DNA of 64,000 nt from Tsuneonella troitsensis (lineage in GTDB: Bacteria; Pseudomonadota; Alphaproteobacteria; Sphingomonadales; Sphingomonadaceae): contig NZ_LMAU01000003.1 of assembly GCF_001441535.1 (NCBI RefSeq), positions 62,001 through 126,000 of the forward strand, in the 5' to 3' direction. How positions within the stretch are numbered: the stretch's first letter is position 1; each line of letters begins with the position of its first letter. Positions 15,895 to 53,603 of this stretch are shown piece after piece. A model generated the notes under the pieces. It saw only the letters and a list, made by a program, of their open reading frames with translations. It did not search any database and was not told the DNA's origin. Both the position numbers and the translations under genes were made by a program.

Positions 15895-15953
15895 GGTCGG
15901 TTAATTGTGATGAGGTAAAGAGACGCATACGCGCTTTGATCGTCCCGTGGTGG

Positions 15954-16871
15954 CTAGACGATGATTGCTCGTGGGCTTACAAATGAGCCGACTGTGAGCA
16001 AGCTATAGGAGTTGCAGAAGCTTTCGAAGTAGAACTCGCATGGCTCGTCGCGGTCGTTGGCGATAATGTCGGTCTCCTCGAATATCGGGCCGCGCTTGCG
16101 AGCAGTCGCATATTTTTCGATCACGGCGTACCCGTCCTCGGCGCTGAACTTGGCGAATTGGTCGCGGAATGCCTTAGAGCGGATGAAGTAGCGGACCGTC
16201 GCGCCGTTGTCGCCTCTCCCAATGCTCGGGTGCCGAGGGTGGGCGGTCATCATTCCGAAAACCGGCCGATCGGGTTCACGATCTTCGATGATCCGCCAAA
16301 AGGTCGAAGTCAGAGTGTTACCGTAACGCTTCGCCATCATCTTGATTGTGTCAAAGCCCAAGTCGCAGTCGCGCGCTTCCGCGCCGAAGCGCTCCTGGAG
16401 GAAGAGCAGCCGTGCCGAGGCGAAATTCGCTTCCGCCTCGACCGTTGCATGGCACGCAGGATCGAGGGTGACACCGTCATCGCCGAACAGGAATTCGCGG
16501 TGCCACGGGATCAGGCTGTGCCCAATCTCGTGCCCTTCGATCCAGCGATGCTTTGGATGGGGCACCTCTTGGTCGATCATAATTCTTCGGGATGAGGGAA
16601 CCCACAAAGCCGACAGACCGGCCTTGCGGATAGCATCGAAGAGGGCCGTGGGTTTGTCGAACAGCTGCTTCCCAGCCATCTTCAGCCGGTGGGCCACTTC
16701 GTCGAACAGGCCGACGTCGTTCGAACTGTAGTACTTCAGATCGACATCGAGCTGACGGCGCACCATCTCCAGATCTAGCGGCGGTTCGGGATTTCCAAGA
16801 TCTTTCAGTAGGCGCGCAACGATGGCTTCGATATCGCTAGCCTCGTATTCGCCGACTTGCCCGATAAGCAT
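15954..16871 (-). CDS. ImmA/IrrE-family zinc metallopeptidase
   Basis: A 305-residue protein with the zinc-protease motif GHEIGHSLIPWH (about residues 112-123) and a downstream glutamate helix (EAEANFASARLLF, about 145). ImmA/IrrE peptidases cleave a partner XRE-type repressor; in ICEBs1 ImmA inactivates ImmR to start transfer, and in Deinococcus IrrE cleaves DdrO. Here the gene follows an XRE protein by 7 bp, the same arrangement. The C-terminal 100 residues look like a sensor domain. It is last in an RHH-GNAT-XRE-ImmA operon, divergent from the ubiquitin-like operon. Confidence 0.85.
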   Translation of the reverse strand: MLIGQVGEYEASDIEAIVARLLKDLGNPEPPLDLEMVRRQLDVDLKYYSSNDVGLFDEVAHRLKMAGKQLFDKPTALFDAIRKAGLSALWVPSSRRIMIDQEVPHPKHRWIEGHEIGHSLIPWHREFLFGDDGVTLDPACHATVEAEANFASARLLFLQERFGAEARDCDLGFDTIKMMAKRYGNTLTSTFWRIIEDREPDRPVFGMMTAHPRHPSIGRGDNGATVRYFIRSKAFRDQFAKFSAEDGYAVIEKYATARKRGPIFEETDIIANDRDEPCEFYFESFCNSYSLLTVGSFVSPRAIIV

Positions 16872-16878
16872 GTTTCGC

Positions 16879-17382
16879 TCAGTGCACCCGTTCCGCCAGG
16901 AACTTCACGAAATCATTTAACAAGCGCCGTTCGTCCCGGGTCAGTTGGGACATATCATCCGACATCGCCGCGAATCGTTCGGCTTGCTCCTCGAGCGCAT
17001 TGTCATTGGCGACCATCGCCCCGGACAGGACCATCAACGATCGCTCCGGAATCTCGAACACGCTCGCGAGTTGGTGAACCAACCGGGGTTTGGCCCGATA
17101 GTGCGGATCGTGCTCGACCTGGCGCAAATGCTCGGGGTCGATCCGCGCTTTCTTCGCAAGGTCTTCGATCGACAGACTGTCTCGTCTTCGCAATTGGCGA
17201 ATGAGCACGCCAAAGCTATGCGCGAGCCGCTCGCTGCGCACTGCATTGTCGCCAACCAGTTCTGGCGACAAGAACATGCCGATGTCCTGAAGGACCATTA
17301 TCGGCGCTCCAGCATCCGTATCGACAATGGGATCCGTGTCGATCCGACGCTGGAGCCACTCCTGGGAGATAAGGATTTCCAT
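16879..17382 (-). CDS. XRE-family helix-turn-helix regulator, partner of ImmA-like peptidase
   Basis: The 167-residue protein has a helix-turn-helix at about residues 58-110 (RRRDSLSIEDLAKKARIDPE), preceded by a 50-residue extension and followed by an acidic helical tail (LTRDERRLLNDFVKFLAERV). It lies directly upstream of the ImmA/IrrE-type peptidase gene, the normal place for that peptidase's substrate. I infer that it represses its own operon or neighbouring promoters until cleaved. Confidence 0.83.
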   Translation of the reverse strand: MEILISQEWLQRRIDTDPIVDTDAGAPIMVLQDIGMFLSPELVGDNAVRSERLAHSFGVLIRQLRRRDSLSIEDLAKKARIDPEHLRQVEHDPHYRAKPRLVHQLASVFEIPERSLMVLSGAMVANDNALEEQAERFAAMSDDMSQLTRDERRLLNDFVKFLAERVH

Positions 17383-17396
17383 CTCGAGCTCCTTTC

Positions 17397-18029
17397 CTAA
17401 ATCGCGAGGAAGGCTGTCGCCTGTTCCTCGGTGGTTTCAAAATAACGCATGCCTGTGCCATCGACCCCTAAGTCGGTCATGCCGCAAACGTCGCGATACC
17501 AGGCCTCGGCTTGGGGCAGGGCGTGCAGCCCCACGCGTCCAGCGAACTCCTCGTGGAAACTGAGCGAGATCGCCGCGCCGAGTAAGATGCGCCCTACGCC
17601 CTTGAAGCGAGGAACAGCGGCCAGAGTTGGCCGATTCCACGGCGCACTCGCGAGCAGCACGACCTTCACCAGCGGCTTGCCTTTCTGCGAAGGCTCCTTT
17701 GCGAACCCTGCCGTTTGCGCAAACATCAAGCCTTGTGTGACGCCTTGGCCTTCGAGCGCGAAGGACGCCCAGTCAAGCCGACCCTCAATGGCATCGGCCT
17801 TGCTCGCCCACTGCCAGTGCGCATCCTGGATCATGCGCAGCTGGACAACTTCGTCGACATTTCCGCCGTTGGCCCTGATCTCGTCGAGATGGCGATCGAA
17901 TATGGGGCGCCATCGCGTGAGAAAATGATCCTTGTGCCGTTCCGCGACTGGGCTCCACAGATCGAGATCCGTCGGCTGGTTCGTCTCTCGATCGACAACC
18001 GAGAACGTCGCTAGCGGTTTATCAGACAC
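17397..18029 (-). CDS. GNAT-fold acetyltransferase-like protein
   Basis: A 210-residue protein with a GNAT-like core in its second half: strand LVKVVLLASAPWN, an acetyl-CoA loop resembling RFKGVGRILL, and the final strand region CGMTDLG then GMRYFE. The first 100 residues are unlike standard GNAT proteins, so substrate is unknown. GNAT proteins beside RHH genes can be tRNA-acetylating toxins (TacT/AtaT class), and the 71-residue RHH gene lies 10 bp upstream. This product is longer than typical GNAT toxins (about 160-175 residues), so a toxin role is only a possibility. Confidence 0.6.
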   Translation of the reverse strand: MSDKPLATFSVVDRETNQPTDLDLWSPVAERHKDHFLTRWRPIFDRHLDEIRANGGNVDEVVQLRMIQDAHWQWASKADAIEGRLDWASFALEGQGVTQGLMFAQTAGFAKEPSQKGKPLVKVVLLASAPWNRPTLAAVPRFKGVGRILLGAAISLSFHEEFAGRVGLHALPQAEAWYRDVCGMTDLGVDGTGMRYFETTEEQATAFLAI

Positions 18030-18039
18030 GCGATTGAGC

Positions 18040-18255
18040 TCAGCTCAGAACCATGAGTTCCGCTTTGTCCTTTGTCGCGGGGTCTTCCACGAAGACCTTT
18101 TCGCCACGCGAGATCCGATCCGATATCGATTGGTAAAGACGCAGCGCCTGACGCACCAGCGCGGTTTTCGAGAGGCCTTTCTCGTCGGCCAGCTTCTCCA
18201 CGATGTCCATTTCGATAGCGCTGAGGTTCAGCGTCATGGTCCGCTTGTCATTCAT
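18040..18255 (-). CDS. Ribbon-helix-helix DNA-binding protein
   Basis: A 71-residue protein with the RHH pattern: beta strand TMTLNLSAIEMDI, helix VEKLADEKGLSKTALVRQAL, and the conserved turn before the second helix. It heads the operon with the GNAT-like, XRE and ImmA genes. RHH dimers bind tandem short sites, and three TAGCTA boxes spaced 22 bp lie 57-107 bp upstream of its start codon, so autoregulation is plausible. It could also be the antitoxin for the GNAT-like product. Confidence 0.75.
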   Translation of the reverse strand: MNDKRTMTLNLSAIEMDIVEKLADEKGLSKTALVRQALRLYQSISDRISRGEKVFVEDPATKDKAELMVLS

Positions 18256-18312
18256 ATGCTTGCTCCGTGTTTCGCGCAGGTAATGCCAGAGAACGGTCCT
18301 GTCAACAGAAAT

Positions 18313-18362
18313 TAGCTACAAGATGGCCATTGACTAGCTATAATATGGCTACTACATAGCTA
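18313..18362. promoter_or_regulatory. Three TAGCTA boxes at 22-bp intervals in the divergent promoter region
   Basis: TAGCTA, itself a palindrome, occurs at 18313-18318, 18335-18340 and 18357-18362, an exact 22-bp period (about two helical turns). The first two belong to a 16-bp direct repeat, TAGCTAcAAgATGGCc and TAGCTAtAAtATGGCt. The second overlaps a TATAAT sequence (18339-18344). The array lies between the RHH operon and the ubiquitin-like operon and is the best candidate for their shared operator. A TTGACA on the minus strand (18299-18304) may be a -35 for the RHH operon. Confidence 0.7.
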
Positions 18363-18412
18363 TCGAGCGCCGCACTTTAACGGCTCTCGCCACACAGACC
18401 GGAGTGAATGCC

Positions 18413-18553
18413 ATGAAACGTAAATCGGAAGTCACCAGCCCCCGCGCCGCCAGCGCTGCCTCCAAGGTCCTGCGGGATCCGCGCTCGAGCAAGGCAGCCA
18501 AGACGGCGGCGGCATCGGCGCTGACCCAGCGCCCTAACCGCAAGACGAAGTAG
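18413..18553 (+). CDS. 46-residue basic peptide heading the ubiquitin-like operon
   Basis: The product begins MKRKSEVTSPRAASAASKVL and ends in RPNRKTK; it is very rich in Lys, Arg, Ala and Ser and has no hydrophobic core. A GGAG site lies 8 bases before the ATG. The following multiubiquitin-family gene starts 11 bases after the stop, so the two are in one transcript. Small Lys/Ser-rich proteins of this look occur in diverse bacterial genomes. In this place it could be a conjugation substrate or scaffold; that is speculation. Confidence 0.7.
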   Translation: MKRKSEVTSPRAASAASKVLRDPRSSKAAKTAAASALTQRPNRKTK

Positions 18554-18564
18554 GAGATGGACTC

Positions 18565-18819
18565 GTGAACAAGCCTGACAAAAAAACCGTTACCATCGTC
18601 GTCGAGGGCACCGAGCACGAGTGGCCCAAAGGCGACATCAGCTACGCCGAAGTCGTGACCCTAGAGGTGCCCGACTACGCACAGCACCCGGAGGTTACCT
18701 ACTCGGTGCTCTACAAGCGCGGCCATGGCAACAAGCCCGAAGGGACTCTCGTTCCCGGCGCGAGCGTCAAGGTCAAGGACGGGATGCTGTTCAATGTATC
18801 AGAAACTGGTCAGTCGTAA
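18565..18819 (+). CDS. Ubiquitin-like protein, multiubiquitin family, single domain
   Basis: An 84-residue beta-grasp protein from GTG 18565, with TAGGAG directly upstream. It shows the multiubiquitin-domain pattern: strand KTVTIVVEGTEHEW, then ISYAEVVTLE, then TYSVLYKRGHGNKPEGTLVP and the closing VKVKDGMLFNVS. Many relatives have two or more tandem domains; this has one. It ends GQS, without the C-terminal Gly-Gly of eukaryotic ubiquitin. Its last 26 bp overlap the E1-like gene. It should be activated by that E1-like protein and attached to an unknown target. Confidence 0.8.
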   Translation: MNKPDKKTVTIVVEGTEHEWPKGDISYAEVVTLEVPDYAQHPEVTYSVLYKRGHGNKPEGTLVPGASVKVKDGMLFNVSETGQS

Positions 18820-19993
18820 TCCCGACCTCGGCCGCCTGGCCGACAAGGGTTACGCAATCGCCTTCGACAGCAATTGCCTGATCGTTCGCGATATTCCCTA
18901 CCTCGATCAGACGGGCTCGCTCGCCTGGGGCTCGCTCGTCGCCAAGCTCGTCTTCATCGACCGTGAACGCGTCGAGCAGGACGACCATCAAGTCTATTTC
19001 GCGGGCTCGCCGCCGCATGGACTCGATGGGCAGGCGATCCGCAACCTCGGCGGTGGCCCGGCCACCATCCAGCTTTCAGCGTCCTGCAGCGACATCGTGG
19101 TCGAGCGTTCCTTCTCGAACAAGCCGCGGATCGCGGGTCGCTTTGCGGATTTCTTCGACAAGATAGAAAGTTATGTAGCAATCATCGCGGGTCCCGCGAT
19201 CGAGAAGTACGCTGCGAACCCGTTCACCTTCCGCGCTTGCGAGACCGTCGCCGAACATCCGGTGTTCAAGTTTCAGGACACCCTCACCAGTCGCGCGCAG
19301 ATCAGCGACCTCACTGCGAAACTTGAGAATGATATCGTTGCAATCATTGGCCTGGGCGGAACGGGTGGCCACTTGCTCGATGGCCTCGTCAAGACGCCTG
19401 TCCGCGAGATCCGTGGGTTCGACGGCGACCGTTTCCACGTCCACACAAGCTTCCGCTCGCCCGGGCGCCTCGACGAGCGCGAGCTTGGCCAGTTCAAGGC
19501 CGACGTGTATCGCGAACGCTATGCCCACTTTCGCCATGGGCTCACGCTCAAGCCGATCTACATCGATGAGACTTCCCGCGCCGAGCTAGAGGAGGTTACG
19601 TTCGCTTTCGTCTGCGTCGATAAGGGGTCCGCCCGGGCCGCGATCTTCGCGCTCCTCGCTAAGCTGGGCATTCCTTTCATAGACGTAGGCATGGGTCTGA
19701 GGCGCAAGGATGACGGGCTCGCCGGGATGCTTCGGGTCACGCACTACCCTGCGGATGAGGCGCTGGCGATGATGCGGCTCGGTTTGGCGGAGCTGAGCGA
19801 TGGACCCGGCGATCTATATCGCAACAATATTCAGATCGGCGAACTTAACGCCATCAATGCGGCGCTGGCGTTGGTGCGTTACAAGCAGGTGCGCGGCTTT
19901 TACCGCGAGGATGCCGCCTACAAGCACCTGCTGTTCGCAATTAACGACCTGTCGTCGGTGGGGGAGACGGATTTCGATGCACATGCGGCGTGA
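18794..19993 (+). CDS. DUF6791-ThiF protein: E1-like activating enzyme with N-terminal E2-like domain
   Basis: The start at 18794 gives 399 residues. About residues 1-150 match the DUF6791 type (MYQKLVSRNPDLGRLADKGY, then WGSLVAKLVFID and VYFAGSPPHGLDG), a domain found fused to bacterial E1 proteins and regarded as E2-like. About residues 180-399 are a ThiF/E1 adenylation domain with the nucleotide loop GLGGTGGH (about 186) and FVCVDKGSAR (about 272). No cysteine lies in the FIDVGMGLRRKDDG segment or after it, where classical E1 enzymes often have the thioester residue. The gene overlaps the ubiquitin-like gene by 26 bp and the DUF6527 gene by 17 bp. Confidence 0.82.
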   Translation: MYQKLVSRNPDLGRLADKGYAIAFDSNCLIVRDIPYLDQTGSLAWGSLVAKLVFIDRERVEQDDHQVYFAGSPPHGLDGQAIRNLGGGPATIQLSASCSDIVVERSFSNKPRIAGRFADFFDKIESYVAIIAGPAIEKYAANPFTFRACETVAEHPVFKFQDTLTSRAQISDLTAKLENDIVAIIGLGGTGGHLLDGLVKTPVREIRGFDGDRFHVHTSFRSPGRLDERELGQFKADVYRERYAHFRHGLTLKPIYIDETSRAELEEVTFAFVCVDKGSARAAIFALLAKLGIPFIDVGMGLRRKDDGLAGMLRVTHYPADEALAMMRLGLAELSDGPGDLYRNNIQIGELNAINAALALVRYKQVRGFYREDAAYKHLLFAINDLSSVGETDFDAHAA

Positions 19994-20384
19994 GGATGTC
20001 CGGTCGATGCCACCCAGCCTTGAGCCCGGGGTTCTCTACGTTTCGCGAGAATTCGAGACTGCGGCCCACCTGTGCGCGTGCGGCTGCGGGCGCAAAGTCC
20101 GCACTCCGCTGGGCCCCACCGAGTGGGAGGTAAGCGCCGGCACGCATGGGCCGAGCTTGTGGCCGTCTATCGGAAACTGGCAATTCCCGTGCCGCTCTCA
20201 TTACGTTATCCGGGATGGCGGCATTGAGTGGGCACGAACGTGGACACCCGCGCAGATCGCGAGGGGGCGGGACCGAGAAACCGCACGCCGTGCGCGCTAT
20301 TTTGGGCGTCGCGCCAGGTTGCCGTGGTGGAGCCGGCTCTGCGAATGGACTTGCAAGACGCTGTTCCGACGACCGCGCAATTGA
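19977..20384 (+). CDS. DUF6527 protein, last gene of the ubiquitin-like operon
   Basis: A 135-residue protein if the ATG at 19977 is used (GGGGGAG about 10 bases upstream); ATGs at 19983 and 20007 are alternatives. It shows the DUF6527 pattern: a Cys cluster HLCACGCGRK (Cys33, 35, 37), the segment LWPSIGNWQF and the motif CRSHYVI (Cys72, Ser74, His75), then GGIEW. These Cys/His residues could bind zinc. Proteins of this family are found with multiubiquitin/E1 genes and have been proposed to be a serine-type peptidase that processes the ubiquitin-like protein; that is from memory of the literature. The C-terminal 40 residues are Arg-rich. Confidence 0.75.
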   Translation: MHMRREDVRSMPPSLEPGVLYVSREFETAAHLCACGCGRKVRTPLGPTEWEVSAGTHGPSLWPSIGNWQFPCRSHYVIRDGGIEWARTWTPAQIARGRDRETARRARYFGRRARLPWWSRLCEWTCKTLFRRPRN

Positions 20385-20665: not shown

Positions 20666-21301
20666 CTAGAGAGCTCTCCCAAACCAGATCACTCGCCCGA
20701 CCACGTGTACCTCTGAGCGGTTCATGTCGCTCCAGGTCGGGTATGCGGGATTGTCGCTGGCGATCGTAATCTGCTTGCCGCCGGGTTTGATGGCGACGCG
20801 CTTCACCACAAGTGCGTCGTCGGCGCGCAGGACATAAATCCCGTCACGAAGCCGTGATGCGTGATCGGATGCATCAACCAGTACTTCATCGCCGTCGCTG
20901 AGAGTGGGCTCCATGGAGTCGCCCATCACTCGCACGATTGAAAGACTAGCGCTCTTTGCCGCCGTCAGACTACGCAGCCAGCGCTCATCAAACCCGAAAC
21001 GTGTTTGAGCAGTCTCGCTCGCCGCCACGGCACCGAAACCCGCGGACGCTTCAACATCGAGCACGGGGATTTCCACAAGGCCGTCCCACACGACGTTAGC
21101 CGGACCGCCGAAGACCTGCTCATCGACGCCGAAGAAGCTCGCCAGGATCTTGCGGTCTGCATCGTCGAGCTTGCGGGGCGAGCCCCGCTTGATGAATTGC
21201 TGGATGTAGCTGGCATTGCGCCCCAGCAGCCTGGAGATCGCGGCATAGCCATATTTGTGCTTCTGGATCAGCCGGTCGAGTTCTTCCCTGACATTCTCCA
21301 T
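20666..21301 (-). CDS. LexA/CI-like repressor with S24 autopeptidase domain
   Basis: A 211-residue repressor. The N-terminal helix-turn-helix is around YGYAAISRLLGRNASYIQQF (residues 17-36). A cleavage-type Ala-Gly pair (A87-G88 in EASAGFG) precedes the S24 peptidase domain, which has nucleophile Ser129 in MGDSMEP and general-base Lys167 in LVVKRV. Proteins of this build (phage CI, SetR of SXT) self-cleave with RecA after DNA damage. A GTTC-N7-GTTC box, inverted repeats and a TTTCCTACA-like motif lie upstream. It is a strong candidate for the master repressor of transfer. Confidence 0.87.
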   Translation of the reverse strand: MENVREELDRLIQKHKYGYAAISRLLGRNASYIQQFIKRGSPRKLDDADRKILASFFGVDEQVFGGPANVVWDGLVEIPVLDVEASAGFGAVAASETAQTRFGFDERWLRSLTAAKSASLSIVRVMGDSMEPTLSDGDEVLVDASDHASRLRDGIYVLRADDALVVKRVAIKPGGKQITIASDNPAYPTWSDMNRSEVHVVGRVIWFGRAL

Positions 21302-47156: not shown

Positions 47157-47750
47157 TTACTGGTGGGTGTCCTTATGAGCATCACGCAAGATCTCGATCC
47201 CACCATAAACCGCGATGCAGGCGACAGCGATGCCAACAATCAAATCGGGCCAGTTCGCCCCTGTCAGCATGACCGCGATCCCCGCAAGGACGATGCCGCC
47301 GTTCGAGACGAAGTCATTGAAGCTGAACGTCGTTGCCGCGCGCAAATTCACGTCCTTGTTGTTCAGCTTGTTCAACAGGCGCAGGCACCACAGATTTACG
47401 ACAGCGGCCACGATCGCCATGCCGATCATGAGCGCGCCGCCGGGAGTCGATCCGTTGAGATAACGCTGCACAGCATCGGCCATTACACCGGCGGCAAAAA
47501 TGAGCAGCATCACGCCTGAGAAACGCGCGGCGCCTCGTTTCCAGCGACGTGACCGCGTCAGCGCCAACAGGCTCAAAGCATAGACAACTGCGTCCGAGGA
47601 GTTGTCGACACCGTTAGCCAGGAGTGCATTCGAATCCCCCAGGAAAGCCGTCACGAAAAAGCCTGCGGCGATGGCGACGTTGAGCGCCAGGACCAGCCAC
47701 AGGGTCTTTCGTTTGTCGGCCGAGCCGAGATCGAAATTGGCTTCGCTCAT
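47157..47750 (-). CDS. Second CDF-family cation transporter
   Basis: A 197-residue membrane protein with the same short-CDF architecture as the one at 42944. Motifs are LLANGVDNSSDAVVYALSLL and FSFNDFVSNGGIVLAG, supplying the Asp/Asn metal ligands; WPDLIVGIAVACIAVYGGIE closes the last helix. It is the last gene of the czc/P-type ATPase operon and overlaps the ATPase stop by 4 bp. It probably exports the same metals. Confidence 0.85.
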   Translation of the reverse strand: MSEANFDLGSADKRKTLWLVLALNVAIAAGFFVTAFLGDSNALLANGVDNSSDAVVYALSLLALTRSRRWKRGAARFSGVMLLIFAAGVMADAVQRYLNGSTPGGALMIGMAIVAAVVNLWCLRLLNKLNNKDVNLRAATTFSFNDFVSNGGIVLAGIAVMLTGANWPDLIVGIAVACIAVYGGIEILRDAHKDTHQ

Positions 47751-50317
47751 CCCTTGCGCTCCTCCGTGGCCGGTTGCAGCCCGGCGAAAGGCACCTCTCG
47801 AAACGCCAAAAGCCGCAGCGCGTTGAAGACCACGATCAACGTCGAGCCCTCGTGGGCAATGACGGCAGGCCCGATCCCAAGCCCGAGTATCGTGGCAGGC
47901 AGCAACACTGCCACCACGCCCATGCTGACGAACACGTTCTGGCGGATGATCCGCCGCGTGCGCCGGCTGAGGTCGACGGCAAAGGGTAGTTTGGAGAGGT
48001 CGTCGGCCATCAGGGCGACATCGGCGGTTTCGAGCGCCACGTCGGACCCGGCCGCTCCCATCGCAATTCCGACCGTGGCCGTGGCAAGTGCGGGCGCATC
48101 GTTGACACCGTCACCGACCATCGCGACTTTGCCCTCCGCTGCGCGGAGCTTCTTGATCGCCTCGACCTTGTCTTCGGGCATAAGATCGCCCCAGGCGTCC
48201 TCGATGCCGACGCTCGCGGCGACGGCCTTGGCGACAGGTGTCGCGTCGCCCGACAGCATGATCATCCGCGTTATGCCGAGTTCGCGCAAGCGTGCGGTCG
48301 TTGCCGGAGCCGCCGACCGAGGAGTATCCATCAGCCCGATTACGCCAAGGTACCGCGCGCCCTGGCGAACGATCATGATGGTCCGCCCCTGGGAACGCAG
48401 TTCATCCGCCGAGGCCTTCACTGCATCGGAAAGCGGTTCGCCGCCCGCCTCGGCAAAGAGTTCGTCGCGTCCGATGTGAACGGTCTGGCCGTCGACGACG
48501 GCTTCGACACCGCGTCCCGTGATCGATTTAAGGTCGGTCGCCTTCGCGGCCGGGCCCTTGAGCCGCTCCGTCCCATCGCGGACGATCGCCGCGGCGAGCG
48601 GATGGTCGCTGAGCGCTTCCACCGCGACCGCCGTCTGCAACAATTCTTGCTCCGTTGCATCGGCCGCCGCAACGACATCCGTCACGCGCGGCCGCCCTTC
48701 GGTCAACGTTCCCGTCTTGTCGAAGGCAATAGCGCTCAGTGCGCCCAAGTTCTCGAGCGGCCCGCCGCCCTTCACGAGCACCCCGCCGCGCGCCGCCCGT
48801 GCCACGCCCGACAAGACCGCGCTCGGTGTTGCGATCGCGAGAGCACAGGGGCTGGCCGCGACCAGAACAGCCATCGCCCGATAGAAGCTGGCACTGAAGG
48901 GTTCGTCGATCACGACCCATGCAAACAGCAGCAGCACCACCAGTCCGAGAACGACCGGCACGAAGATGCGCTCGAACCGGTCGGTGAAGCGTTGAGTGGG
49001 AGACTTCTGCGTCTCCGCTTCGCTGACGAGCTTCACGACTTTGGCCAATGTCGTGTCAGAGGCGAGACGGGTGACCTGGATTGCCAGTGCGCCAGAGCCG
49101 TTGATCGTGCCCGCAAATATTCTGGACGTGGACGCGACGCTGTCCGCTGCGGCCGCAGCGGCCGCCGCGTCCTCTACCGGCTGCTTGTCGACCGGAACGC
49201 TTTCGCCAGTCACCGGCGCCTGGTTGACGCTGCTGGTGCCTTCGATCACGAACCCGTCAGCCGGCAAGCGCTCGTTGGGTTTGACGACGACGATGTCGCC
49301 GACGACCAGCGCCTCAACAGGCACTTCCTCGGTGGCGCTGCCGCGCCGCACGACCGCCGTCTGAGGCGCGAGCTCCGCCAGCGCTTCGATCGCCTTCTTG
49401 GCGCGCCCCATGGCATAATGCTCGAGCGCGTGGCCAAGGCTGAACAAAAACAGGAGCAAGGCCCCTTCGGCGAATTCCCCTAACAGGGCCGCGCCGGCGG
49501 CCGCGACGAGCATCAGCGTGTCGATCTCGAAGCGGCGCAATTTGAGAGAATCGATAGCTTCGCGGACAGTGAAGAACCCGCCGAAGAAGTAGGCGGCAAG
49601 GTAGAGCGCAGGGGAGACAACCTCCGGCGCGGCCTCGGCCCAGGACAGTGCAAATCCGATAGCTAGCGCGACGCCGGAGATGAGCGCAAAATACAATTCG
49701 GTGTTCGACCCAAATACGCCGCCGTGCGCGTGACCCCCGCCCTCGGTATGGTCATGGGAGTGATCGGCATCTTTAGCGTGGTCGTGCGCGTGCTTGCCGG
49801 CAGGAGTCGCAGTCGCGGTCGTAACCGGATCGGCAGAAGCGACCGAAGCCGATGTAGCGGGTTTACTAGAGCCTCGGCGACTTACGCCGAGCGAGGCAAG
49901 CGCCGACGTTATCTCTGCTTCGTCGACGAGGCTCCGGTCAAACTCCACCCTCAGAGCTCCGCTGCCCGTCGCATGGGCTTCGAACACGCCCTCGATACGG
50001 CACAGCGTTTCCCCCACGGTTCGCGCCCGCCGCTCCTGCTCGATCCCCTCGACCTGCCACACGATGTGCCCAAAGCGAGCGGTCAGCGCGGCCCCGGCCG
50101 CGCGCGCCGCCTTGCGTATCTGTGCCAGCCCGACCTTCTCCGGATCGTAATGAACACACAGCTTTGCCGGCTCGCTCTCTGCAGCGCCGACCACATGCGC
50201 TTCGCTAACGCCGTGGTGCTCCGTCAGCTCGTCAAGCAGCCTCGCGACACAGCGATCCGCTTCATCGGGAACTGTCGGGAGAAGGAGCGGAAGGTCGAGG
50301 CGTGTGCGTGTCGTCAC
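47747..50317 (-). CDS. P1B-type heavy-metal ATPase (Zn/Cd/Pb type)
   Basis: An 856-residue ATPase. Two N-terminal regions resemble metal-binding ferredoxin folds but have no CxxC (RCVARLLDELTEHHG; ERRARTVGETLCRIEG). A His/Asp linker follows at about residues 174-200 (HAHDHAKDADHSHDH). The core shows the membrane motif ASPCALAIATPSA (about 484), DKTGTLTEGRP (about 534) and GDGVNDAPALA. SPC is shared by several P1B groups; neighbours suggest Zn, Cd or Pb export. It starts 34 bp after czcA in the same operon. Confidence 0.88.
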   Translation of the reverse strand: MTTRTRLDLPLLLPTVPDEADRCVARLLDELTEHHGVSEAHVVGAAESEPAKLCVHYDPEKVGLAQIRKAARAAGAALTARFGHIVWQVEGIEQERRARTVGETLCRIEGVFEAHATGSGALRVEFDRSLVDEAEITSALASLGVSRRGSSKPATSASVASADPVTTATATPAGKHAHDHAKDADHSHDHTEGGGHAHGGVFGSNTELYFALISGVALAIGFALSWAEAAPEVVSPALYLAAYFFGGFFTVREAIDSLKLRRFEIDTLMLVAAAGAALLGEFAEGALLLFLFSLGHALEHYAMGRAKKAIEALAELAPQTAVVRRGSATEEVPVEALVVGDIVVVKPNERLPADGFVIEGTSSVNQAPVTGESVPVDKQPVEDAAAAAAAADSVASTSRIFAGTINGSGALAIQVTRLASDTTLAKVVKLVSEAETQKSPTQRFTDRFERIFVPVVLGLVVLLLFAWVVIDEPFSASFYRAMAVLVAASPCALAIATPSAVLSGVARAARGGVLVKGGGPLENLGALSAIAFDKTGTLTEGRPRVTDVVAAADATEQELLQTAVAVEALSDHPLAAAIVRDGTERLKGPAAKATDLKSITGRGVEAVVDGQTVHIGRDELFAEAGGEPLSDAVKASADELRSQGRTIMIVRQGARYLGVIGLMDTPRSAAPATTARLRELGITRMIMLSGDATPVAKAVAASVGIEDAWGDLMPEDKVEAIKKLRAAEGKVAMVGDGVNDAPALATATVGIAMGAAGSDVALETADVALMADDLSKLPFAVDLSRRTRRIIRQNVFVSMGVVAVLLPATILGLGIGPAVIAHEGSTLIVVFNALRLLAFREVPFAGLQPATEERKG

Positions 50318-50351
50318 AAAGTGTTCTCCTCGAAGACAGGTCTTGGACGGA

Positions 50352-53300
50352 TCATGCTGGCAGCGGTTCCGACCTAGGTATTCCGTCCTCGAAATCGCCC
50401 GGCTGATGGGGCTCCCCGCGCTTCCTCAGGATGAGATGGCTGATCGCGGGAAGGACGTAGAGGGTCATGATGGTGGCGACGATCAGGCCGCCGATGACCA
50501 CGATCGCGAGCGGCTTCTGGACCTCTGCCCCTCGCCCGGTGGCCAGCGCCATGGGCACGAAGCCTATCGCCGGCACGATGCCGGTCATCAGCACCGCGCG
50601 GACCCGCTCCAGAGTGCCTTCGACGATCGCTTCGTCCACCGGTCGTCCAGCATCGATCCGCTGACGGACGCTGGTCATCACCACGAGACCGTTGAGCACG
50701 GTCACCCCCGATAGCACGATGAAACCGACCGCCGCCGAGATCGAGAACGGCAAGCCCGCCAGCGCCAATCCAAACGCGCCACCGGCGAGCCCCAGCGGAA
50801 CTGCCGAATAGACGGCCAGCGAAGAGCGCAAATTGCGCACCGCCAGGAACAGGATGCCGAAGATCAGCAGGAATACCACTGGCACGATCAGGGTGATGCG
50901 CTGCGAGGCTGCCTGCAAATTCTCGAACTGCCCTCCCCAGGTGATGGTGACACCGGGTGGAAGCTTAACCTGCGCGACCCGCTCCTGCGCCTCCTCGACA
51001 TAGGAGCCGAGATCGCGGCCCCTCACATTGGACTGCACCACTACTCGGCGCTGTCCGTTCTCACGGCTGACCTGGTTCAGGCCTTCGGACGTTCGGAAGG
51101 CGACCAGCTCGCGCAGCGGGACGGACGTTCCGGCACCGGAAGCACCTTCGGGGAGCTGCACGGGAAGCGAGCCGACCACGTCGAGGTCGTCACGGTTGAG
51201 ATTGTCGAGCCGAACGATGATGTCGAAGCGGCGGTCACCCTCGAACACCAATCCGGCTTCGCGTCCGCCCAGGGCGGCCGCGACCGTGTCGGTCACGTCC
51301 TCCATGGCCAGGCCGTAGCGAGCGATCGCTTCGCGATCGAACTGCACCTCGAGCGTGGGAAAGCCCTCGGTCTGTTCGACCTTCAGATCCGCAGTTCCCT
51401 CGACACCGCTCATAGCGGCTGCGACTTCGCCCGCGACGCGATTGAGAACGTCCATGTCGTCGCCAAAGACCTTGACTGCGATGTCGCCGCGGACACCGGC
51501 GATTAGCTCGTTGAAGCGCAGCTCGATCGGTTGGCTTGTTTCATAGGCGTTACCGACGAGGCCCCCCAGCTTCTCGTCGATCCGGGCGAGAACGTCCTCG
51601 CGGCTATCGACCCCGTCCGGCCACTCGTCGCGCGGCTTCAGGATGATGAAGGCATCGGATGCGTTCTGCGGCATGGGATCGGAAGCGACTTCGGCCGTAC
51701 CGGTCTTCGAGTACACATAGGCGACCTCCGGGAGGCTGGACACCGCGCGCTCGACCGCCAGCTGCATCTTGGTCGACTGCTCGAGCGAGGTCGAAGGTAC
51801 CCGCAGCGACTGCATGGCAAGATCGCCCTCGTCGAGAGTGGGAATGAATTCGCGCCCCAGACTTGTGAAGACAAGAAAGGCTGCCGCCATGGTGGCCAAG
51901 CCGCCGCCAATCCACGGCCAAGGCCGCTGGACCACTCGGCGCAGCACGGGCTCGTACCGCTCCTTGTACCAGGCAACCGCCTTGACCTCTTTCTCCGCGA
52001 CCTTGCCGCGGATGAGGACGGCAACCATGGCGGGCACGAAGGTCAGCGACAGGAGGAAAGCACCCACCAGCGCCAGCATGACCGTGATCGCCATCGGCGA
52101 GAACGTCTTGCCCTCGACCCCGGTGAAGGTGAGCAGCGGCGCAAAGGTGAGCAGGATGATTGCCTGGCCGTAGATGGTGGGCCGGAGCATCTCCTTGGAG
52201 GCTTCGAACACTTCGTGAAGGCGCTCCGGCAGGCTCAGAAGCCGTCCCTCATGATGCTGGCGCTCCGCCAGCCTGCGCAGGCAATTCTCGATAATGATGA
52301 TCGATCCATCGACAATGAGGCCGAAATCGAGTGCGCCGAGGCTCATCAGATTTCCCGACACGCCGAAGCGGTTCATCCCGATGGCCATAAACAGGAAGGA
52401 AAGCGGGATCACGAGCGTTGCGATGATCGCCGCGCGGATATTGCCAAGCAGCCAGAACAGCACCGCTGCCACGAGCAGGGCCCCTTCGAGCAGGTTCTTC
52501 TCGACGGTTCCGATCGTGGCTTCGACCAAGGCGGCACGATCGTAGACCACGTTCACCGCGATGCCCGGAGGCATCGACTTCGCGACCTCCTCCAGCCGCT
52601 CGCGCACGTCTTCGGCAACGATGCGGCTGTTACCCCCCAGCAGCATCAGCGCGGTCCCCACAACCACTTCGCGCCCGTTCATGGAAGCCGAACCGGTCCT
52701 GAGATCGCCGCCGCTTTGCACGGTCGCAACGTCGCGGACGAGCACGGGCACCCCTCCACGGGTCCCTATGGCCGTCCGGCCGATCTCGTCTTCGGTGCGA
52801 ATGCGCGCATCCGCGCGCACCAGAAAGGCCTCGCCGGCGCGCTGCACGAAGTTGGCACCGATCGAGATGTTTCCGCGCTCGAGGGCCTCGGCGAGCTCGG
52901 TAAAAGAGACGCCGTAAGCCGCCATGCGGCTTGGGTCAGGCTGAACCACCAGCTGTTTTTCGTAGCCGCCGATCGAATCGATTCCGGCAACTCCCTCGAC
53001 ACTGCGGAGCTGGGGGCGGACGACCCAATCCTGGATCGTCCTCAGATAGGCGGCCTTCTGCACATCGGTCGTCAGACGCTCGCCATCCGGGGTGAGGAAC
53101 GCGCCGTCGGGCTGAAAACCGGGTTGCCCGGCGATCATCCGCGATTCCTTCGACAACGGTCGCTTGTAATCGACCGTCCACATCAGGATTTCGCCGAGGC
53201 CAGTCGACAGCGGGCTCATCTGGGGCTCAACCGCTTCGGGAAGGCTCTCGCGTGCCTGGTTGAGGCGTTCGGCAACTTGCTGCCGCGCGAAGAAGATATC

Positions 53301-53603
53301 GACGCTGTCCTCGAAGATCACCGTGACCTGGCTGAAGCCATTGCGCGAGATCGAGCGCGTGCTTTCTAGGCCGGGAATCCCGGCCATCGCCGTCTCAACC
53401 GGAAACGTGACCAGCCGCTCCATGTCGAGTGGACCCAAGGCCGGCGCCTGGGTGTTGATCTGCACCTGCTTGTTGGTGATGTCCGGCACTGCGTCGATCG
53501 GCAGGCGGAATAGCTGGTAGGCGCCATACGCCGCAACGAGCAGGGTAAGGGCGATGACCACCCAGCGAAATCGGACCGAAGCGTCGAGGAGACGATCTAA
53601 CAT
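50352..53603 (-). CDS. czcA: CzcA-type RND heavy-metal efflux pump
   Basis: A 1083-residue inner-membrane pump with the RND architecture of two repeats of six helices and large periplasmic loops. The fourth-helix motif is LDFGLIVDGSIIIIEN, which has the Asp-Asp-Glu pattern of divalent-cation (Zn/Co/Cd/Ni) HME-RND pumps and not the Cu/Ag CusA form. The N-terminus FRLPIDAVPDITNKQVQINT is typical. It works with the CzcB and CzcC proteins encoded upstream, 91 bp away. Confidence 0.93.
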   Translation of the reverse strand: MLDRLLDASVRFRWVVIALTLLVAAYGAYQLFRLPIDAVPDITNKQVQINTQAPALGPLDMERLVTFPVETAMAGIPGLESTRSISRNGFSQVTVIFEDSVDIFFARQQVAERLNQARESLPEAVEPQMSPLSTGLGEILMWTVDYKRPLSKESRMIAGQPGFQPDGAFLTPDGERLTTDVQKAAYLRTIQDWVVRPQLRSVEGVAGIDSIGGYEKQLVVQPDPSRMAAYGVSFTELAEALERGNISIGANFVQRAGEAFLVRADARIRTEDEIGRTAIGTRGGVPVLVRDVATVQSGGDLRTGSASMNGREVVVGTALMLLGGNSRIVAEDVRERLEEVAKSMPPGIAVNVVYDRAALVEATIGTVEKNLLEGALLVAAVLFWLLGNIRAAIIATLVIPLSFLFMAIGMNRFGVSGNLMSLGALDFGLIVDGSIIIIENCLRRLAERQHHEGRLLSLPERLHEVFEASKEMLRPTIYGQAIILLTFAPLLTFTGVEGKTFSPMAITVMLALVGAFLLSLTFVPAMVAVLIRGKVAEKEVKAVAWYKERYEPVLRRVVQRPWPWIGGGLATMAAAFLVFTSLGREFIPTLDEGDLAMQSLRVPSTSLEQSTKMQLAVERAVSSLPEVAYVYSKTGTAEVASDPMPQNASDAFIILKPRDEWPDGVDSREDVLARIDEKLGGLVGNAYETSQPIELRFNELIAGVRGDIAVKVFGDDMDVLNRVAGEVAAAMSGVEGTADLKVEQTEGFPTLEVQFDREAIARYGLAMEDVTDTVAAALGGREAGLVFEGDRRFDIIVRLDNLNRDDLDVVGSLPVQLPEGASGAGTSVPLRELVAFRTSEGLNQVSRENGQRRVVVQSNVRGRDLGSYVEEAQERVAQVKLPPGVTITWGGQFENLQAASQRITLIVPVVFLLIFGILFLAVRNLRSSLAVYSAVPLGLAGGAFGLALAGLPFSISAAVGFIVLSGVTVLNGLVVMTSVRQRIDAGRPVDEAIVEGTLERVRAVLMTGIVPAIGFVPMALATGRGAEVQKPLAIVVIGGLIVATIMTLYVLPAISHLILRKRGEPHQPGDFEDGIPRSEPLPA

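Follow-up and report, generated by a model that had tools for sequence, protein, structure and literature searches.

What kind of system is a bacterial ubiquitin-like operon that has one ubiquitin-like domain, no terminal Gly-Gly and no gene for a separate E2, and how is it controlled? This question was raised by a four-gene operon at positions 18413 to 20384 of a 64,000-nucleotide (nt) stretch of Tsuneonella troitsensis DNA (contig NZ_LMAU01000003.1, positions 62,001 to 126,000; hereafter the window). An earlier note, made from the sequence itself, had described the operon as a minimal Bub-type set in a transfer element, beside a likely regulatory operon. That interpretation as a whole was partly supported. 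The results indicated that the operon was a real, apparently intact member of an E2-less DUF6791 subtype of the known Bub family. We place the probability at roughly 0.6 that it is a Bub conjugation cassette of this subtype, located on a conjugative element (MOBF/F type) and kept off by a divergently oriented controller. The controller block and its operator-like array were the less expected part of the locus.

The operon and its DUF6791 relatives

The four open reading frames (ORFs) of the operon were present where the earlier note had placed them, and their coordinates were refined as follows.

18413..18553, + strand: microprotein of 46 amino acids (aa), rich in Lys, Ser and Ala, phrog_5079 family; first ORF of the operon
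18565..18819, + strand: single-domain ubiquitin-like protein (Ubl) of 84 aa with the C-terminus TGQS; PF14452
18794..19993, + strand: E1-like protein of 399 aa with DUF6791 and a ThiF adenylation domain; Pfam and NCBIfam
about 19983..20384, + strand: DUF6527 protein with a C-x-C-x-C ... C-x2-H motif; PF20137

Profile hidden Markov model searches matched every Pfam family that the earlier note had named. Specifically, the Ubl matched Multi_ubiq (PF14452) in one stretch (5.9e-15), the E1-like protein matched DUF6791 (PF20590, 7.4e-39) at its N-terminus and ThiF (PF00899, 3.3e-9), and the DUF6527 protein matched PF20137 (2.3e-23). The E1-like protein also matched NCBIfam PRK06153.1-2 (4.2e-173); its mechanical ORF, which began at 18725, was over-long, and its refined start was at 18794. 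The microprotein, which would be 46 aa with an ATG start and 49 aa with a GTG start, had no Pfam match and matched the phrog_5079 profile at 9.1e-15. The Pfam families and the homology of the E1 domain to Bub E1s, which is described below, upheld the proposed multiubiquitin/E1/DUF6527 set.

The Ubl and E1 reading frames overlapped by 26 nt in the window, and the same 26-nt overlap was found in the annotated coordinates of all 10 plasmid relatives that were first opened. Relative to an 86%-identical copy in Qipengyuania (L002), the ratio of nonsynonymous to synonymous substitution rates (dN/dS) was 0.11 for the microprotein, 0.064 for the Ubl, 0.063 for the E1-like protein outside the overlap and 0.18 for the DUF6527 protein. 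Because these ratios were low, we concluded that the four ORFs were not chance ORFs. No promoter was found in a sigma-70 promoter scan.

We gathered 54 DUF6791 loci from plasmids, genomes and contigs, excluding copies of the window (L001, L011 and L055), and used a set of 39 loci for scans of neighboring genes. A relative of the E1-like protein was found on 115 plasmids in the plasmid search. In the ten plasmid loci first opened, the Ubl and E1 genes were followed by a gene for a DUF6527 protein (nine annotated as such, and one annotated as "hypothetical" that matched DUF6527), and DUF6527 was seen in 48 of the 54 loci. All 54 had a Ubl ORF on the same strand that ended near the E1 start. The last residue of the Ubl was Ser in 52 loci and Ala in two (L009 and L029), Gly-Gly ended none, and the C-terminus lay at a fixed distance in 53. 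The TGQS end was kept in two loci (L043 and L046) in which the overlap position held no E1 start codon, and therefore the overlap alone does not explain the conserved end; the Ubl candidates in this overlap analysis were chosen by their final Ser, and the Ubl counts came from separate analyses. As far as our literature searches reached, the conserved Ser terminus of the DUF6791-subtype Ubls is new.

The features that the earlier note had called unusual were present, and they were not odd for this subtype. A single Ubl domain is common in it, and a solo Ubl was also recorded by Iyer in 2006; the lack of Gly-Gly is the rule. The operon and the rest of the 39 loci gave no match to an E2 or a JAB in a scan that used queries and models from three systems and had no positive control. 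A single Ubl domain with no Gly-Gly, no E2 and no JAB is thus the typical state, and it is because an E2 domain was not found in the operon or the 39 loci that we describe an E2-less subtype beside classical Bub. A tree of 53 E1 sequences had two main clades; locus L036, whose start was unsure, was omitted from this tree and from the E1 conservation analysis. In the clade of the window E1, 18 of the 24 rows had short Ubl ORFs (110 aa or less), and one Ubl (L015) had three domains.

Other genes were seen around these operons. A UvrD-like helicase gene preceded the Ubl gene on the same strand in 5 of the 39 loci (L018, L019, L020, L113 and L116), and a RecB-like nuclease gene did so for the operon in 2 (L012 and L126). 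DUF6527 was also found on viral contigs (L138 to L151), 1 of which, out of 14, had E1 and Ubl genes in the viewed span (L140), and three phage genomes held a relative. A stand-alone phage DUF6527 could be a counter-defense protein or an unrelated use of the domain.

The divergent block and the phased array

The likely regulatory operon of the earlier note did adjoin the Bub operon, and its description was incomplete. As listed below, it was a block of four genes with a phased operator-like array.

18313..18362, no strand: operator-like array of five TRGCYA hexamers in exact 11-bp steps, in the shared divergent promoter region
18040..18255, - strand: ribbon-helix-helix (RHH, CopG-type) DNA-binding protein of 71 aa, whose gene opens the divergent block; PF01402, 4.9e-5, over the cut-off
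17397..18029, - strand: GNAT-like acetyltransferase of 210 aa, assigned from homologues only
16879..17382, - strand: CapH-like helix-turn-helix (HTH) repressor of 167 aa with an N-terminal extension of about 50 aa; PADLOC and Pfam
15954..16871, - strand: CapP-like ImmA/IrrE (M78) metallopeptidase of 305 aa; PADLOC capP, 2.5e-12

The CapH-like protein matched PADLOC capH (9.2e-10) and, over residues 57 to 113, Pfam HTH_31 (6.9e-7). The CapP-like protein had no Pfam match of its own, and its HExxH residues (H114, E115 and H118) were invariant in 16 of 16 block members. This HTH and M78 pair was divergent from the operon, as in CapH+CapP controllers. The RHH gene, which had a dN/dS of 0.008 relative to L002, was adjacent to the GNAT-like gene, as in GNAT-RHH toxin-antitoxin (TA) pairs. 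In Pfam, NCBIfam and further profile searches, the window GNAT-like protein had no family match of its own, and its putative GNAT identity is weak; it is supported by homologues that were annotated as GNAT on plasmids, one of which matched Acetyltransf_10 at 9.4e-5, just under the cut-off.

Of the 39 DUF6791 loci, 20 had a CapP-like gene in divergent orientation and 2 had a WYL gene, with several of the queries taken from those 39 loci themselves. RHH-GNAT genes were found in six loci, every time with CapP. A search of plasmids for the GNAT-like protein yielded 52 records, and we opened 11 of them, mostly the closest. The genes were arranged in the same RHH-GNAT-CapH-CapP order on 10 of these plasmids; the Calothrix plasmid was the exception. 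The block faced a cyclic oligonucleotide-based antiphage signaling system (CBASS) on three plasmids (L160, L163 and L165), JAB-size Bub operons with a BubCD-like E1 on four (L161, L164, L166 and L167) and a DUF6791 Bub operon on one (L162), and its divergent position was the same on all eight. On L159, it faced a multiubiquitin/JAB/ThiF set whose E1 also matched BilD. On L169, an E2-bearing Bub operon (with a gene annotated E2/UBC) lay on the CapP side and a transposase gene on the promoter side.

TAGCTA-like sites at an 11-bp phase preceded the RHH gene in all 16 RHH-GNAT loci. At least three contiguous sites were in phase in 14 loci, and L165 and L169 had only two. The 5-nt spacers of the window array were unlike one another. 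When the five-site, 11-bp score was compared with those of shuffles that preserved base composition only, 0 of 2,000 shuffles reached the observed score in five of the first six loci and 1 of 2,000 did in L129; in the 10 plasmid loci, 0 of 1,000 reached it in each. Site steps other than 11 bp scored lower. We also made a control on equal terms by scanning 1350 bases upstream of E1 in all 39 loci. The 6 loci with RHH scored 18 to 21 of 24, a level reached by 0 of 60 shuffles, and the 33 loci without RHH (14 of which had CapP) scored 11 to 14, a level that 9 to 60 of the 60 shuffles also attained. The motif was first spotted by eye in the window, and the 14 loci beyond the window and L002 are the fairer test.

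The strict array pattern occurred once in this genome, at this array. Among 30 genomes, five of which had the RHH block, it was found in this genome only, because the other arrays carry mismatches. A perfect triple occurred in 29 viral-contig stretches, none of which had RHH, GNAT, CapH or CapP matches; many were plain 11-bp tandem repeats with identical spacers, and the array was rejected as a general phage signature.

The likeliest binder of the array is the RHH protein. Hexamers this short, repeated once per helical turn, are consistent with operators of the RHH type, and the best-scoring site lay 37 to 108 bp from the RHH start in the first six loci. We think it somewhat unlikely that the block's extended CapH, and not RHH, binds the array, although this CapH differs too. 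Specifically, the HTH protein of L016 was 112 aa and had no N-terminal extension like that of the window CapH, and L016 had no array; therefore, the array and the CapH type may covary with RHH.

An alternative for the block as a whole is that it is a TA or addiction module (RHH antitoxin, GNAT toxin, HTH and M78 proteins) that merely stabilizes the cassette. RHH-GNAT pairs resemble known TA pairs. Such a role was argued for a Synechocystis plasmid in the portions of PMC4963859 covered here, in which COG2856/DUF955 "TA" loci stood beside 70% of multiubiquitin genes. We consider this alternative unlikely, given that the phased array sits in a promoter region shared with an immune operon, that CapH and CapP are controllers in the covered portions of PMC13373217 and that the block keeps one divergent position before CBASS and Bub alike. 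The TA role and the controller role are compatible with each other.

No description of the four-gene block was found in the literature searched, with most subscription papers, including key Bub ones, outside its reach, and the terms GNAT, acetyltransferase and ribbon-helix-helix had zero occurrences in PMC13373217. The four-gene controller with its phased array, common to CBASS and Bub, is new as far as our searches reach.

Proposed Ubl transfer in the DUF6791 subtype

Eight E1 adenylation residues (G186, G188, G189, G191, D210, D212, R221 and K235) were invariant in all 53 sequences, and D276 was kept in 52, as expected for a domain predicted to carry out adenylation. No Cys was invariant among the 53; the commonest Cys column was position 274 (35 of 53), beside D276. 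T316 was kept in 52. The adenylation domain matched Citrobacter BubCD in the PDB (1.3e-8), and hhalign aligned it with three JAB-type Bub E1s (98.9%, 1.3e-17). The JAB position of the window E1 held no JAB; DUF6791, with invariant residues H65, G71, P74 and G79, was in its place. The C-x-C-x-C and C-x2-H motifs of DUF6527 were invariant across 44 rows (4 of 48 were dropped for length), a pattern near, not identical to, Iyer's signature. The idea that DUF6791 is a hidden E2 or JAB was unsupported, as no profile similarity was found when it was compared with three-row alignments of E2 and of JAB.

We propose that RHH would bind the TAGCTA array cooperatively, at its 11-bp phase, and together with CapH would repress the shared promoter region. 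Single-stranded DNA (ssDNA) from phage damage or incoming conjugative DNA would activate CapP, which would cut CapH and open expression; this step is drawn from published CapH/CapP work, and only homology was examined here. The E1 would then adenylate the C-terminal serine carboxylate of the Ubl, as the active-site residues and the fixed Ser end suggest. Because no E2 was found and no Cys was invariant, we infer direct transfer, in which the Ubl would pass from the E1 itself to target amines, either through an intermediate that does not involve Cys or directly off the adenylate. Thr316 is one candidate nucleophile. In Bub systems, E1 and E2 work through oxyesters. DUF6791 occupies the place that JAB has in other Bub E1s and may serve to edit the Ubl or to position it, and the DUF6527 protein, probably zinc binding, might act as a target or release factor. 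The role of the system would most likely be defense or a stress response against invading DNA.

It is improbable, in our view, that the system needs an E2 encoded elsewhere and is not truly E2-less. Other Bub operons do have one, as Prok-E2_E in L152 or the gene annotated E2/UBC in L169, and searches for Prok-E2_A and Prok-E2_B matched nowhere, controls included, so their absence is not shown. However, DUF6791 was found in 7 of the 385 genomes of a class sample, this genome included, and Prok-E2_E, which was found in 3 of the 385 (2 over the cut-off), was absent from all seven; the 39 loci had no E2 match either. Still less probable is a sulfur carrier or small-molecule activation pair in the style of ThiS/ThiF or MccB in place of protein conjugation: in PDB sequence searches, the adenylation domain matched TcdA best, with ThiF, MoeB and MccB also listed, but it matched BubCD as well, for which the PDB titles name a Citrobacter protein and its D104A mutant, the annotation of the ten plasmid operons included no biosynthetic gene cluster, and DUF6527, CapHP/CapW and plasmid settings recurred with no Gly-Gly end.

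In addition to the E2 families just named and the scope of the E2/JAB scan, several points weigh against an E2-less conjugation cassette under a divergent controller. CapP-like genes were undetected in 19 of the 39 loci, and the controller is therefore not a general feature. In 6 of the 54 loci, the fetched stretch showed no DUF6527, which therefore may be dispensable. DUF6791 had no hhalign relation to JAB, E2, the Ubl or DUF6527, and this genome encoded, away from the operon, a JAB protein on its own and another ThiF protein. Phage protection by Bub operons is not demonstrated in the covered portions of PMC13373217.

A broader proposal is tentative, with odds slightly short of even: that the block is a portable four-gene immune controller with its array, common to CBASS, JAB-type Bub and DUF6791 Bub, that wires a TA-like pair to an ssDNA-triggered protease, and that a Ser-ended Ubl is conjugated directly by E1 without an E2 or a catalytic Cys. 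If so, this two-protein route of E1 and Ubl would rank with the simplest tagging systems of the ubiquitin-like kind and would inform the question of how transfer by E1 alone came before E2s. The controller and array would serve as a DNA signature by which to locate immune operons and would allow a direct test of the way in which TA-like pairs and ssDNA sensing join in defense control.

Probable cassette movement, the microprotein and known systems

The conjugative setting proposed in the earlier note was confirmed. The window contained homologues of the TrwC relaxase and TrwB coupling protein on one side of the cassette and of TraG_N and TraC_F on the other, and the transfer element was on a contig of 611 kb. 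Positions 15952 to 20383 matched L002 at 85.9% over 4433 bp in one block, from the end of the CapP gene to the end of the DUF6527 gene. Comparison of this pair showed purifying selection on all eight genes (dN/dS 0.008 to 0.18). The L002 surroundings matched worse and in another order (TraG region, 73% DNA; TrwC, 55% protein; S24, 62% protein). Because the cassette was about 86% identical while its surroundings diverged and were rearranged, the most economical interpretation is that all eight genes moved together, as a single 4.4-kb unit, between related conjugative elements; this putative movement is new, as far as our searches reach. The Novosphingobium plasmid pCAR3 (MOBF/MPF_F) was laid out in the same way, except that its small first ORF was a different one.

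Two other features of the window were observed. An S24 peptidase/LexA-like regulator gene (20666 to 21301) lay just downstream of the cassette on the opposite strand, and an S24 gene was also downstream in L002, but inverted. Cargo of the metal-efflux type, a P-type ATPase and an AcrB/CusA-like resistance-nodulation-division pump, was found at 47747 to 53603.

The earlier note had counted the 46-aa peptide as part of the ubiquitin-like set. The ORF was there, and it was not Ubl specific, as it recurred before other defense genes. The phrog_5079 profile matched 28 of 396 genomes of the order (E <= 0.01), and tblastn found the peptide on 10 plasmids (E <= 1) and found no relative in the phage collection, though the family is a PHROG. 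It preceded the Ubl gene in 5 of the 39 DUF6791 loci (the window, L002, L016, L063 and L100). With most relatives elsewhere, a specific role was rejected, whether within the Ubl set or as a target of conjugation. Small DUF2188 proteins occupied the same first-ORF slot in five loci (L003, L013, L014, L114 and L130), all with a divergent CapP-like gene.

Seven of the 10 peptide-bearing plasmid records adjoined defense genes by annotation or PADLOC: Bub (2), bacteriophage exclusion (BREX; 2), restriction-modification/XRE (1), TIR (1) and reverse transcriptase (1). Another adjoined mercury genes, a Planctomycetes record had hypotheticals only, and the tenth record was the near twin of that one. 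Five of the 10 plasmid matches had no annotated feature; the PLSDB gene tables are incomplete, and one record was unannotated. Among 19 genome stretches fetched, 7 had a defense-type neighbor (L094, L095, L096, L098, L099, L100 and L101), with neighbors scanned in some stretches only, chosen by eye, and L102 to L112 left out. Across plasmids and genomes, the neighbors included BREX/WYL with a PD-(D/E)XK nuclease, HmaA/WYL/PD-(D/E)XK, RmrA, CapP with SocA-Panacea, a class VI reverse transcriptase, a ThsB-like TIR protein and AbiH. Because neighbors were partly scanned, without a random-gene control, the data are suggestive of a first-ORF microprotein of defense loci. Such a microprotein is new as far as our searches reach, and the family would mark varied defense loci and is easily missed.

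The operon itself is of a known kind, type 6e of Iyer, Burroughs and Aravind (2006, PMC1779556), now called Bub. In the covered parts of that paper, type 6e has one to three Ubl domains (a solo Ubl for one species), an E1 with a JAB, in place of which a subset has a different N-terminal domain, a metal-binding protein, and an inactive E2/RWD-like domain that is fused or separate. The window operon resembles it in its Ubl, the non-JAB N-terminal E1 domain of that subset, the small metal-binding protein and a mobile distribution. It differs in that no E2/RWD domain was found here or in the 39 DUF6791 loci and in its controller block and array, which those parts do not describe.

In the covered portions of PMC13373217 (2026), such operons are called Bub, and 219 of the 544 reported lie beside CapW or CapH+CapP. 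The classical Bub operon L152, from a plasmid of E. roggenkampii, encodes DUF6527, and its Ubl and E1 are fusions with Prok-E2_E and Prok-JAB, respectively. The window operon shares with Bub the Multi_ubiq, ThiF E1 and DUF6527 set, a homologous E1 domain and the CapHP/CapW association; unlike L152, it has neither Prok-E2_E nor Prok-JAB, and has DUF6791 instead. The Synechocystis pSYSX cassette, as described in the covered parts of PMC4963859, likewise has multiubiquitin, E1 and metal-binding protein genes beside an HTH/M78 pair on a plasmid, but its E2 is separate and the HTH/M78 pair was read there as a TA pair. As in the CapH+CapP controllers of PMC13373217, again in the parts covered, an HTH repressor and an M78 peptidase are divergent from an immune operon; here, RHH and GNAT genes are added in the promoter-proximal position, along with a phased TAGCTA array.

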